From Billgrantia tianxiuensis (lineage in GTDB: Bacteria > Pseudomonadota > Gammaproteobacteria > Pseudomonadales > Halomonadaceae), in assembly GCF_009834345.1 (NCBI RefSeq), contig NZ_CP035042.1:1922001-1986000 (forward strand): 64,000 nucleotides of DNA. The letters are read 5' to 3'. A program made the translations under genes and the position numbers. Below are positions 23,615-26,140 of the stretch, in pieces. A model generated the notes under the pieces. That model did not search any database and was not told the origin of the DNA. It saw nothing but the letters and a program-made list of their open reading frames with translations. Within the stretch, counting starts at the first letter, position 1. Every line of letters begins with the position of its first letter.

Positions 23615-24121
23615 ATGAACATCGCCCCGCAGCGGGTCGTGACCCTTCATTACGTGCTCAGCGACGATCAGGGCCAGGTGCTTGACGATTCACGGGCACG
23701 CGCCAAGCCCCTCGAATACCTTCATGGGCATGACAACATCATCGCTGGCCTCGAGCAGGCGCTCGCCGGCCACCAGGCCGGCGACAGGCTGAATGTCACG
23801 CTGACCCCTGAGGAGGCCTATGGCAGCCGCCATGACGACCTGGTACAAGAGGTCGGCCGCGGTGCCTTCTCCCAGGACGACCTGGCACCCGGCATGCGTT
23901 TCCAGACGCCGGGCGACGACGGCCCGCAGATCGTGACAGTGCTCGAGGTGCGTGACGCTACGGTGCTGGTCGACACCAATCATCCATTGGCTGGACATAC
24001 TCTCGTCTATGCGCTCGAAGTTCTCGACGTGCGCGAGGCAAATCGCGCCGAGCTGGCCAAGGGGCACCCGCTTCCCGCCGATGTGGAGCCGTCTCAGGTC
24101 GAGGATCGCAAGGTTCCTTGA
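23615..24121 (+). CDS. FKBP-type peptidyl-prolyl isomerase, SlyD-like
   Basis: A 168-residue protein with the SlyD layout: an FKBP half (VVTLHYVLSDDQGQVLDDSR, PLEYLHGHDNIIAGLEQAL) carrying an inserted IF flap (EEAYGSRHDDLVQEV), then ALEVLDVREA. SlyD-like proteins are folding helpers with isomerase and chaperone action. The histidine-rich metal-binding tail of E. coli SlyD is missing. ATG 23615 follows AGGAG; the two genes are 36 bases apart, so co-transcription with rfaH is possible. Confidence 0.9.
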   Translation: MNIAPQRVVTLHYVLSDDQGQVLDDSRARAKPLEYLHGHDNIIAGLEQALAGHQAGDRLNVTLTPEEAYGSRHDDLVQEVGRGAFSQDDLAPGMRFQTPGDDGPQIVTVLEVRDATVLVDTNHPLAGHTLVYALEVLDVREANRAELAKGHPLPADVEPSQVEDRKVP

Positions 24122-24147
24122 ATCGCAACTGCTTCGAATACCCCCCA

Positions 24148-24219
24148 AAAACTGACCTGTATCAATTCGCTGCGCGCTGTTCATCGAGTCCGGAGCGAAA
24201 TTTGATGCAGGTCAGTTTT
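24148..24219. promoter_or_regulatory. Pair of inverted Anr/FNR-like sites
   Basis: Two 18-base arms form a near-perfect inverted repeat, with one mismatch, around a 36-base spacer. Each arm holds an FNR/Anr-like half-palindrome: TTGATACAGGTCAG on the minus strand at 24152-24165 and TTGATGCAGGTCAG on the plus strand at 24202-24215 (consensus TTGATNNNNATCAA). The second is centred at 24208.5, exactly 41.5 bases before a predicted start near 24250, and TAGAGT at 24238-24243 sits as the -10. That is class II activator geometry. The oxygen link is inferred. Confidence 0.55.
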
Positions 24220-24277
24220 CCCCTGCCGCCGTCAGGCTAGAGTGAAGCCATCACATCAGGTGACGGGGAGAACCACC

Positions 24278-24394
24278 ATGTACTGGGATGATGCAGTAGT
24301 GTTCGGGCTGGTAACCGTCGCGATGATGATCGCTTTCATGGGAGGCTGGATTGGCTTCGTGATTCGCGACCATCGTCGCAAGCGCAAGCACTGA
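24278..24394 (+). CDS. 38-residue single-TM protein, candidate CcoM of cbb3 oxidase
   Basis: ATG 24278 has a GGGGAG ribosome site and encodes 38 residues. A short acidic N-terminus (MYWDD) is followed by one membrane helix (AVVFGLVTVAMMIAFMGGWI) and a strongly basic tail (RDHRRKRKH), an N-out, C-in pattern. From memory this resembles CcoM, the small single-helix subunit of Pseudomonas stutzeri cbb3 oxidase. The Anr/FNR-like promoter upstream would suit a low-oxygen oxidase subunit. The match is remembered, not computed. A clean intrinsic terminator at 24443-24469 closes the unit, so it is probably monocistronic. It is shorter than usual gene-calling limits. Confidence 0.65.
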   Translation: MYWDDAVVFGLVTVAMMIAFMGGWIGFVIRDHRRKRKH

Positions 24395-24442
24395 GCCAGC
24401 CTGCTCAGCAAGTCGTCAGGGGAGGGGGATTTCCCCCCAGTA

Positions 24443-24469
24443 GCCGGCCCAATTGGGCCGGCATTTTTT
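24443..24469 (+). terminator. Rho-independent terminator of the small membrane protein gene
   Basis: An 8-bp stem GCCGGCCC / GGGCCGGC with loop AATT is followed by A and six Ts, a textbook intrinsic terminator 48 bases after the 38-residue frame. Confidence 0.88.
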
Positions 24470-24533
24470 CGTGGTAGACTCCTCGGAAAGATACGCCAAA
24501 GGCGTATCGGCAGAAGAATAAATATGGGGGGTT

Positions 24534-25016
24534 ATGCCACTATTTCATCCTGACCGTTGTATGGTGCGGCTGCTGGCAGCTCTCACCCTGCTGTTTGCCA
24601 TGCCCGCTTTGGCCGATTCCAATCGATTGTTGTTGCGTGACGGAGAGCGTGAAATCGCGCTCTCCGTTGACGAACTGCGCGCTCGTGCCGATGTCGAGTT
24701 CCGCTTCTTCGACCCCTATCTGGCCGAGGAAGTCGACATACGCGGTCTGGTCTTTCGTGAGCTGTTGGTCGAGCACTTCGGTGAGGTGCCGTCGCGGCTG
24801 CACTTCGAAGCCTGGGACGACTATGACGTGACCCTGGCGGGCTGGGACGATCCCGACTGGATCCTCGTGACCCACCAGAACGGCGAGCCGATCACGCTGC
24901 GCCACCGCGGTCCGGTGCGTCTGGTCGAGCGTGACTATGGCGACCGCGATCCCTCCAGCCTGCGCAACTTCAACGACTGGATCTGGATGATTAGGCGTAT
25001 CGAGGCGGTATGGTAG
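24534..25016 (+). CDS. Periplasmic molybdopterin-oxidoreductase-fold protein without the cofactor cysteine
   Basis: A 160-residue protein with a signal peptide (LLAALTLLFAMPALA, cut after ALA). The mature part follows the small sulfite-oxidase/YedY-like fold (LSVDELRARADVEFRFFDP, LVFRELLVEHFG, WDDYDVTLAGWDDPDWILVTHQNGEPITLRHRGPVRLV, NDWIWMIRRIEA). The mature protein has no cysteine, so it cannot hold the usual Mo-coordinating thiolate. It overlaps the next gene, a membrane GGDEF protein, by 7 bases, which suggests a ligand-binding or sensory partner rather than an enzyme. That role is inference. Confidence 0.7.
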   Translation: MPLFHPDRCMVRLLAALTLLFAMPALADSNRLLLRDGEREIALSVDELRARADVEFRFFDPYLAEEVDIRGLVFRELLVEHFGEVPSRLHFEAWDDYDVTLAGWDDPDWILVTHQNGEPITLRHRGPVRLVERDYGDRDPSSLRNFNDWIWMIRRIEAVW

Positions 25017-26140
25017 AACCGCGCCAGCCTTTGAGGCGCCACGTTCGCTGGTTATGGCTCAGCGTGATGAGCTTCACCGCCCTGATGCTGCTCATCGCTT
25101 ACCAGACACGCTGGGTCTATCCCGAGATACACGCCTATTTCAGCCAGTCGGGCAATCTCACCGGCCAGCAATTGGCCACCCGCGCTCGGGTCTACCTGCA
25201 GCAGGGTCTCGACCTGCTGCTGACACTGCCCCGGGACAGCGATACCCGCGAGCGTGCCTACTTCCAGCTCAAGCTTGCCTACAGCCTGTTCGACATTGGT
25301 CTTTATCGGCGCGACTACCCTTGTACGGAGCCAAGCCTGGCGGCGATGGACGACTTGTTGGTTCGCTTGCAGGGAAATGATGTCCTCGAGACCGGCCATT
25401 TGCGCGAAAGCCTGCTGGAGCCGATGCGCTGCCTCACTGAGATCGAGATGCACCAGCTCGACCGGCGCAGTACCGTGACGGCGGAATTCGTCGAACAGAC
25501 CCGACGCCACCAAGGACAGGTATTGCTTGGTAGCCTGGTGATCTTCGTGATGGGGCTAGGCTTCTGGCTGATGCACGAGTTGCAGCGTCGACGGGCCGCC
25601 AGATCCGCTCGCGAGAGCCTGGAGTGGATGGCGAAAGCCCTGTGCGATCCACTGACCGGCGTCGGAAACCGCAGTGCCATGCACGATCACGTAACGGCTG
25701 CATGGGGGAGCCCGATGGGGCTGCTGCTGGTCGATATCGATTTTTTCAAGCAGTACAACGATAGCCTGGGACATCCCGACGGGGACCGACTGTTGCGCCG
25801 CCTGGTGCAACTGATCGAGGGCAACCTGGAGCACGAAGCAAGACTCTATCGGCTTGGGGGCGACGAGTTTGCGGTATTGTTCGCGTGCCACGATGCCGAG
25901 ACCCTGGACGAAACCTGCCGCAGCCTCGTTGAATCGCTGCGTGCCGCCAACCTGCCGCATCCTTCGCATCCTCACTCCGAGCATGTGACCTTCAGCGTCG
26001 GGGCAGTGCGCTTCACGGCGAGCCACGCCGGGCTGGAGGCCGGCTATGTTGCCGCCGATGGAGCGCTTTATCAGGTCAAGTCGCGGGGACGCGATGGCTG
26101 GGCGATCGCCTCATTGGACATGAACGAGGTAAGTGGCTAG
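25010..26140 (+). CDS. Membrane-bound diguanylate cyclase (GGDEF)
   Basis: A 376-residue protein. TM1 (LWLSVMSFTALMLLIAYQT) is followed by a periplasmic helical domain of about 140 residues, TM2 (VLLGSLVIFVMGLGFWLMHE) and a cytoplasmic GGDEF domain. The domain begins DPLTGVGNRSAMHD, carries LLLVDIDFFKQYNDSLGHPDGD and has the intact active site RLGGDEFAVLF, so it probably makes c-di-GMP from two GTP. It is translationally coupled to the periplasmic protein before it, which may deliver the signal. No EAL domain. Confidence 0.9.
   Translation: MVEPRQPLRRHVRWLWLSVMSFTALMLLIAYQTRWVYPEIHAYFSQSGNLTGQQLATRARVYLQQGLDLLLTLPRDSDTRERAYFQLKLAYSLFDIGLYRRDYPCTEPSLAAMDDLLVRLQGNDVLETGHLRESLLEPMRCLTEIEMHQLDRRSTVTAEFVEQTRRHQGQVLLGSLVIFVMGLGFWLMHELQRRRAARSARESLEWMAKALCDPLTGVGNRSAMHDHVTAAWGSPMGLLLVDIDFFKQYNDSLGHPDGDRLLRRLVQLIEGNLEHEARLYRLGGDEFAVLFACHDAETLDETCRSLVESLRAANLPHPSHPHSEHVTFSVGAVRFTASHAGLEAGYVAADGALYQVKSRGRDGWAIASLDMNEVSG

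Follow-up and report, generated by a model that had tools for sequence, protein, structure and literature searches.

Is the 38-residue open reading frame (ORF) that follows an FKBP-type peptidyl-prolyl isomerase gene in Billgrantia tianxiuensis a genuine subunit gene of the low-oxygen cbb3 oxidase, and might its short transcript have a role beyond encoding that protein? The gene lies in a 64,000-nucleotide stretch of contig NZ_CP035042.1 (positions 1,922,001 to 1,986,000, referred to here as the window), for which an earlier reading of the letters alone, the original prediction, had proposed a CcoM-like protein behind a two-site FNR/Anr-like promoter at 24148-24394. The coordinates of that proposal are right, but its range ends before the conserved 3' element and the terminator, which extend to 24469. 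The ribosome site, the short gene and the terminator of its own that it described are all present at the positions given in Table 1.

Table 1. Features of the ccoM transcription unit and its surroundings in the window, together with an RNA match in genome G718
Feature	Position	Strand or centre	Basis
Upstream neighbour, FKBP-type peptidyl-prolyl isomerase; outside the ccoM transcript	23615..24121	+	Pfam PF00254, 51.3 bits
Distal FNR/Anr-like site CTGACCTGTATCAA	24152..24165	centre -91.5	8/10 to TTGATN4ATCAA
Proximal FNR/Anr-like site TTGATGCAGGTCAG	24202..24215	centre -41.5	8/10 to TTGATN4ATCAA
-10 element TAGAGT	24238..24243	+	TANNNT at conserved offset from proximal site
Predicted transcription start	~24250	+	-10 element and class II -41.5 geometry
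Shine-Dalgarno GGGGAG	24265..24270	+	Sequence
ccoM, 38 aa, predicted cbb3 oxidase subunit, MYWDDAVVFGLVTVAMMIAFMGGWIGFVIRDHRRKRKH	24278..24394	+	ATG 24278, TGA 24392-24394
Conserved 3' UTR element GTCGTCAGGGGAGG, candidate regulatory seed	24412..24425	+	Conservation of core GTCAGGG
Hairpin 1 of 3' UTR	24424..24438	+	Consensus fold
Intrinsic terminator GCCGGCCCAATTGGGCCGGC + A + T6	24443..24469	+	Terminator scan (hairpin 24443-24462, then T run) and consensus fold
RNA match in G718	G718:C52:85042-85211 (L227, G718:C52:84000-86500)	minus	PhrS-type 3' element and terminator

In the Halomonadaceae, 57 of 65 ccoM loci have a relative of this neighbour no more than 600 nt upstream, whereas none of the 57 loci of other families does. 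On its 3' side the gene is followed by a 160-aa protein with a signal-like start (24534-25013), for which a Pfam search returned no match at E 0.001, and then by a GGDEF protein (25010-26137).

Identity of the 38-residue protein

The ORF scored 55.3 bits against the NCBIfam CcoM equivalog model NF041600 (cut-off 40) and was the single match above that cut-off in the window genome. Its best match in the PDB was chain N of entry 5djq (E 7.3e-5, residues 1-35); the only other match had an E-value of 0.25. This chain, which is labelled in its PDB entry as a putative uncharacterized protein and which we take to be CcoM of the P. stutzeri cbb3 oxidase, has 43% identity to the window protein. With the chain taken as CcoM, the comparison with P. 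stutzeri CcoM that the original prediction had named as a check came out in its favour. Residues M1, D4, V7, F20, G23, and D31 are invariant across 11 aligned sequences, the 5djq chain among them, and an identical CcoM is present in Billgrantia zhangzhouensis. The median dN/dS for the ORF was 0.10 (17 of 17 same-genus pairs), with dS near or above 1, and hence saturated, in nine of the pairs; by this measure the ORF is under purifying selection within the genus. DUF2627 was rejected as the family of the ORF, its Pfam match being sub-threshold (16.6 bits versus a cut-off of 22.4).

The distribution of CcoM closely followed that of ccoN. Among 151 genomes of the family, CcoM above the cut-off was detected in 65 of the 87 with ccoN and in none of the 64 without it. 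In a sample of 244 genomes from the order, 195 of which have ccoN, CcoM was above the cut-off in 57 and at E 1e-4 or better in 63, and all 57 genomes with CcoM above the cut-off encode ccoN. Fisher p-values, which treat the genomes as unrelated, were 6e-24 for the family sample and 7e-7 for the order sample. CcoM is dispensable for some cbb3 oxidases, as 22 of the 87 ccoN genomes of the family have no CcoM above the cut-off. A class-wide sample was too sparse to be informative, with CcoM in three of 369 genomes, the window's own included.

The original prediction had described a stand-alone oxidase subunit gene far from ccoNOP, and the genome agrees: it has one ccoN match above the cut-off (763.7 bits, cut-off 583), at about 0.8 Mb from ccoM. 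By inspection, the ORFs around ccoN were assigned as ccoO, ccoP, ccoG, ccoH, ccoI, hemN, and an FNR/Anr gene. Three FNR-family genes of this genome exceed the NF008365 cut-off, one of which lies about 9 kb from ccoN and has a CxxCx5C motif.

Based on the equivalog score, the match to 5djq chain N and the strict co-occurrence with ccoN, all of which uphold the proposed likeness to CcoM, the 38-residue ORF very likely encodes a genuine small subunit, CcoM, of the low-oxygen cbb3 oxidase, and we would expect the window peptide to be a member of that oxidase in Billgrantia. The further remark that such a gene is easily missed by annotation stands only in part, as NCBI has a model for CcoM, NF041600, and the ORF may already carry that label in some genomes.

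Two variations on the gene were observed. In the ccoM loci of genomes G059 and G070 (L072 and L073), the codon at the place where CcoM normally starts is not ATG, GTG or TTG but another leucine codon; an unusual start codon is likely there, as the promoter sites and the sequence are kept. In genera g5 and g9, a second CcoM-like ORF of 37-41 aa (MYxDxxVxAxL...), which matches NF041600 weakly, is located downstream of a similar neighbour gene (L076-L081). It had no FNR sites of 8/10 in the 160 nt upstream in the six cases examined, out of eight genomes with such a match, and is possibly a paralogue.

The two-site promoter

The FNR consensus is TTGATN4ATCAA. In the window, the centres of the two sites that resemble it are exactly 50 bp apart and the sites are in inverted orientation, each with 8 of 10 consensus positions. 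A sigma-70 scan of 23800-24800 detected no -35/-10 promoters, as is to be expected of a class II activated promoter, and the geometry is that of this class, with a site near -41.5, a -10 element and no good -35 relative to a start that is itself predicted.

To our sample of 122 ccoM loci the family contributed 65 (above cut-off) and the order 57 (six of them below cut-off), weaker second CcoM matches being excluded. When chosen blind to the -10 element, a proximal site of at least 7/10 was present in 120 of the 122 loci. TANNNT occurred at offset 35 or 36 from the start of that site in 114 of these 120 loci; among the other offsets between 16 and 59, none was seen in more than three loci. In 78 of 121 loci a second site lies 49-52 bp upstream, whereas 200 shuffles gave 2.0 on average and 7 at most; in this count, candidates followed by a -10 were preferred as the proximal site, and in a few loci the distal site was taken for it. 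With the blind choice, the second site was at 49-52 bp in 80 of 120 loci (62 at 50, 12 at 51, three at 49, and three at 52), and no second site was found in 23 of the 120. Families f222, f211, and f226, along with most of f201 and f209, have no second site at 49-52. In another, partly overlapping collection of 80 named Halomonadaceae loci, the spacing was 49-51 in 79 and 61 in the remaining one.

Second-site spacings of 32, 41, and 61-62 occur in other lineages and are near whole helical turns from one another. With spacings below 28 dropped, a Rayleigh phase test favoured a constant helical phase, both for 21 family/spacing classes (p about 5e-5) and for the 11 genus/spacing classes outside 48-52 (p about 0.01). 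Because the classes share ancestry and include some chance matches, we regard the phase result as supportive only.

Both the inverted pair of FNR/Anr-like sites and the 41.5-base distance to a predicted start had been part of the original prediction. The site pair and its -10 element proved to be conserved across genomes, and the proximal site is centred at -41.5 from the start predicted at about 24250. We consider the two-site FNR/Anr-type promoter to be well supported by this conservation; its regulator is predicted to be of the FNR/Anr type, and ccoM to respond to oxygen.

Upstream of the window genome's own ccoN (L086), no FNR-like site of 8/10 or better was found. Two weaker sites of 7/10 are present there, at G000:C1:1144524-1144537 and 1144610-1144623, and one own-ccoN upstream site, GTGATGCAGGTCAG, differs by one base from the proximal site of ccoM. 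Judging from these sites, ccoM and ccoN may share a regulator at different strength.

By sequence, the ORF of PhrS is CcoM

A feature of this locus that the original prediction missed is that the window transcript is, by its sequence, the counterpart of the Pseudomonas RNA PhrS, with a conserved 3' UTR element. Of ten ccoM loci scanned against Rfam, the six from family f3 matched the PhrS model RF01673 over its full length (135-201 bits), and in the search of the order all eight f3 genomes with CcoM matched it. We refer to f3 as Pseudomonas-type from the near-identity of its CcoM to the 5djq chain; family f1 was likewise labelled Halomonadaceae from named records. RF01673 was above threshold in 41 of the 244 order genomes, and 40 of the 41 matches overlap a CcoM ORF, an overlap that is partly built in, as the model includes the ORF, and for which strict filters may have dropped weak matches. 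The ORF of the RF01673 consensus, with 38 residues (37 as published), scored 67.2 bits against NF041600 (cut-off 40) and matched 5djq_N at E 1e-14. By sequence, the PhrS peptide is CcoM.

In the PhrS passages of a 2021 review, PhrS is described as encoding a conserved peptide of 37 aa, the function of which "has so far remained elusive" (PMC8395346), and the corresponding passages of a 2022 review likewise call the function of the peptide unknown (PMC9308961). No statement that the PhrS peptide is CcoM was found in the accessible portions of the open-licence literature on PhrS, CcoM, and cbb3 oxidases, although it may have been noticed earlier. The CcoM passages of PMC10433244 and PMC9264385 do not mention PhrS, and in the portions considered of PMC8765459 and PMC5607611 CcoM appears only in the reference list.

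The window transcript itself aligned with RF01673 from end to end at 29.4 bits (E 1.1e-3), which falls short of the gathering score of 37 and keeps it out of the PhrS family. Its internal ORF and that of PhrS nonetheless both pass NF041600. According to the PhrS section of PMC9308961, PhrS is 213 nt long and has a 12-nt pairing element after the ORF, at nt 169-182. We infer that this published element is GCACGCAAGGCA, which is located at RF01673 model positions 170-181 and is present in all eight f3 loci. Within 420 nt of the stop codon, GCACGCAAGGCA was found in none of the 65 Halomonadaceae loci, the window's included.

One f3 genome that has ccoN, G718, had no CcoM match at E 1e-4. By eye, the locus of its RNA match (Table 1) has a -10 at offset 36 from an FNR-like site, followed by GGGCACGCAAGGCA and the terminator, with no CcoM ORF between, which suggests that the RNA part may have been kept, and be useful, alone.

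A conserved element in the Halomonadaceae 3' UTR

In the Halomonadaceae the ORF is followed by a different element. Its core, GTCAGGG, was found within 420 nt past the stop in 58 of 65 loci, as against two of 65 upstream control stretches of equal length, and the exact 14-mer GTCGTCAGGGGAGG in 38 of the 65. In the 80 named loci, for which 300 nt were searched, the core was present in 80 and the exact 14-mer in 68. The core is missing from seven loci, all from two genera; in one of these genera, the loci (six of six) have by eye a shared sequence of their own. Motif positions outside the seven searched letters are conserved at 0.86-1.0, compared with 0.31-0.59 for the preceding 10 nt and a mean of 0.63 for codon third positions. 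The predicted-unpaired part, GTCGTCAGGGGA, is not used by the consensus fold and is conserved at 0.88-1.0, although seven of its positions are the search string and only the other five count as evidence.

The fold of the 3' UTR is supported but not uniform. In 21 sequences chosen for variety, changes on both sides were seen at seven of 12 pairs of the two 3' hairpins; in hairpin 1 such changes were seen at three of four pairs, with two pairs broken in three and two of the 21 sequences. The ccoM transcript folds better than shuffles (z -3.4). A covariance model scored the window element at 77.1 bits (24412-24468), the window sequence being in the model, with the next non-overlapping match at 17.4 bits; its scores for 41 other loci, selected among those that lack the core, did not exceed 19.1 bits. 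There are 49 exact copies of the 14-mer, spread over 47 of the 151 genomes; 11 of the copies are not at a ccoM, and most of these look coding or unrelated by eye. One, L231, looks like a 3' element without ccoM and scored 17.3 bits with the covariance model.

Complements of the 14-mer, two mismatches being allowed, were not enriched in a scan of the genome to which the window belongs (44 places including the gene itself, compared with 38 for a reversed control). One of the three one-mismatch places besides the gene itself, L228 (G000:C1:117569-117582), immediately precedes the ribosome site of a gene for a DctP-type solute-binding protein, with a duplex energy of -26.4 kcal/mol. As this was seen in one genome, we treat the DctP-type 5' region as a candidate RNA target and a lead only. 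A CsrA/RsmA site in the element was considered and rejected, as one genus by eye reads GGGTAGG there, without the GGA of the motif.

Other lineages have shared strings of their own after ccoM. By eye, these are TGAGTACCTTGCC in three of eight loci of f217 (L100, L102, and L105), GGTTGTCAGGTTC in three of three loci of f183 (L101, L104, and L117), and TATATTGAACCCAT in six of six loci of f1 genus g5 (L044, L051, L055, L063, L064, and L067). It is as if the 3' element were exchangeable among lineages. On this evidence the Halomonadaceae ccoM mRNAs look like PhrS-type dual-function RNAs with another seed; the role of the element could instead lie in mRNA stability, protein binding or termination.

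Proposed mechanism and alternative readings

Taking as observed by computation the protein family, the geometry and conservation of the promoter, the correspondence of the PhrS ORF to CcoM and the conservation of the 3' element, we propose the following. The ccoM gene would be transcribed by itself, into an RNA of about 220 nt that starts near 24250 and ends with the terminator (24469). At low oxygen, an FNR/Anr-type dimer would bind at -41.5 in the class II position and a second dimer at -91.5, and the protein made from the mRNA would be CcoM, which has a single helix and would join the cbb3 oxidase that the distant cco cluster encodes. The counterpart gene in Pseudomonas would be phrS, with PhrS as the RNA and CcoM as its "orphan" peptide. 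The Halomonadaceae RNA would keep the promoter, the ORF, a 3' element of clade-specific sequence and the terminator, and probably also acts in trans on other mRNAs. We hold this explanation as a whole (a CcoM mRNA, an FNR/Anr promoter, the PhrS counterpart and probable trans action) with good confidence; for its last part taken singly, a trans-acting RNA function in the Halomonadaceae, the chances appear evenly divided on the present sequences.

A generic small membrane protein in place of an oxidase subunit might be suspected at this length, as short one-helix proteins are prone to chance matches and no Pfam family was above its cut-off; however, the passing of the equivalog cut-off, the strict dependence on ccoN and the six invariant residues in 11 sequences make this highly improbable. 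Hardly any credence attaches to the idea that the inverted repeat serves the upstream FKBP gene, as its terminator or as a hairpin, in place of two regulator sites. It does lie about 30 bp past the stop codon of that gene and, with one mismatch, forms an inverted repeat of 18 bp that has a TTTT end. Over 60 site pairs from the Halomonadaceae, however, seven of the ten FNR half-site positions are complementary at 0.92-1.0, as against values of 0.50-0.80 for the N4 cores and 0.25-0.70 for the flanks (for sites picked by a palindromic consensus, which favours half-sites), and we ruled out an upstream terminator on this difference; moreover, the site pair persists in families without an FKBP neighbour and the -10 is at a fixed distance. 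Given a two-site promoter, the distal site may be a damper, as at E. coli yfiD: a second FNR dimer there would reduce expression once oxygen is gone, with ccoM expression peaking under micro-oxic conditions. This reading is compatible with our explanation and, by analogy, we put it only slightly short of an even chance. In the relevant passages of PMC11264516, the upper FNR site of yfiD at -93.5 lowers expression and repression at melR is strong for upper sites between -85 and -95, and the 50-bp spacing places the distal site of ccoM, at -91.5, within that range and near the yfiD position. The spacings of 32, 41, and 61-62 elsewhere, however, are outside the range yet near the same helical phase, and co-activation fits equally well; the odds of the distal site helping or damping are about equal.

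A further alternative is that the transcript is a plain CcoM mRNA, with the 3' element as a stability or termination module, a G-rich hairpin ahead of the terminator, and no trans-acting RNA outside Pseudomonas. The position of the element directly before the terminator, overlapping a hairpin, is consistent with this, as are the failure to find an enriched complement in the own genome and the fact that families f187, f189, and f201 have, by eye, no shared short 3' element of this kind. Against it, the predicted-unpaired GTCGTCAGGGGA is far more conserved than the preceding 10 nt and codon third positions, and the analogous element in Pseudomonas is, according to the PhrS section of PMC9308961, a published pairing region. 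We judge the plain mRNA to be a serious contender that nevertheless falls some way below an even chance.

Implications and comparison with known systems

Work on PhrS so far has treated it as a dual-function RNA that connects oxygen with quorum sensing. Extending our preferred reading of the locus across the order, ccoM/phrS may be one old gene, a low-oxygen dual-function RNA that combines an oxidase subunit with a 3' pairing element that can be exchanged. This element would be GCACGCAAGGCA in Pseudomonas and, in most Halomonadaceae, GTCGTCAGGGGAGG or something close to it, with different sequences elsewhere in the order. Switching on the oxidase subunit would then re-tune other mRNAs as well, and the two parts could separate, as in G718. 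We rate this broader proposal, drawn from sequence comparison, as a coin-toss. If it is true, phenotypes that have been put down to only one of the two, RNA or protein, need re-reading. If the PhrS peptide is indeed CcoM, an oxidase subunit known from a solved structure, phrS deletions would also remove an oxidase subunit, ccoM deletions would also remove a regulatory RNA, and published phenotypes may be mixed. A simple logic would also emerge, as PhrS lowers cyoAB of the competing bo3 oxidase, according to the part of a review that deals with it (PMC12101431): one cue would make both a subunit of the high-affinity oxidase and an RNA that lowers cyoAB.

Several known systems resemble this locus in part. 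With CcoM of P. stutzeri (NF041600, and 5djq chain N, taken as CcoM) the window protein has in common its length, a single helix, an M-Y/F-x-D start and a basic tail; it differs from that chain in being 43% identical and in that its oxidase membership is predicted. The promoter is like that of E. coli yfiD, which has two FNR sites, one of class II near -41 and a second near -92, based on the passages on it in PMC11264516 and PMC3050613; in contrast to what is described there, the ccoM sites are near-identical, inverted, spaced by 50 and conserved in several families. A further likeness is to PhrS of Pseudomonas (RF01673), which has the same ORF, an FNR/Anr-type promoter, about the same length, a conserved 3' element and a terminator, although the window transcript has GTCGTCAGGGGAGG and an extra hairpin in the place of GCACGCAAGGCA. 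The dual-function RNAs SgrS/SgrT and VcdRP are likewise single short RNAs that combine a small ORF with a pairing region, but the protein encoded here would, unlike theirs, be a subunit of a respiratory enzyme.
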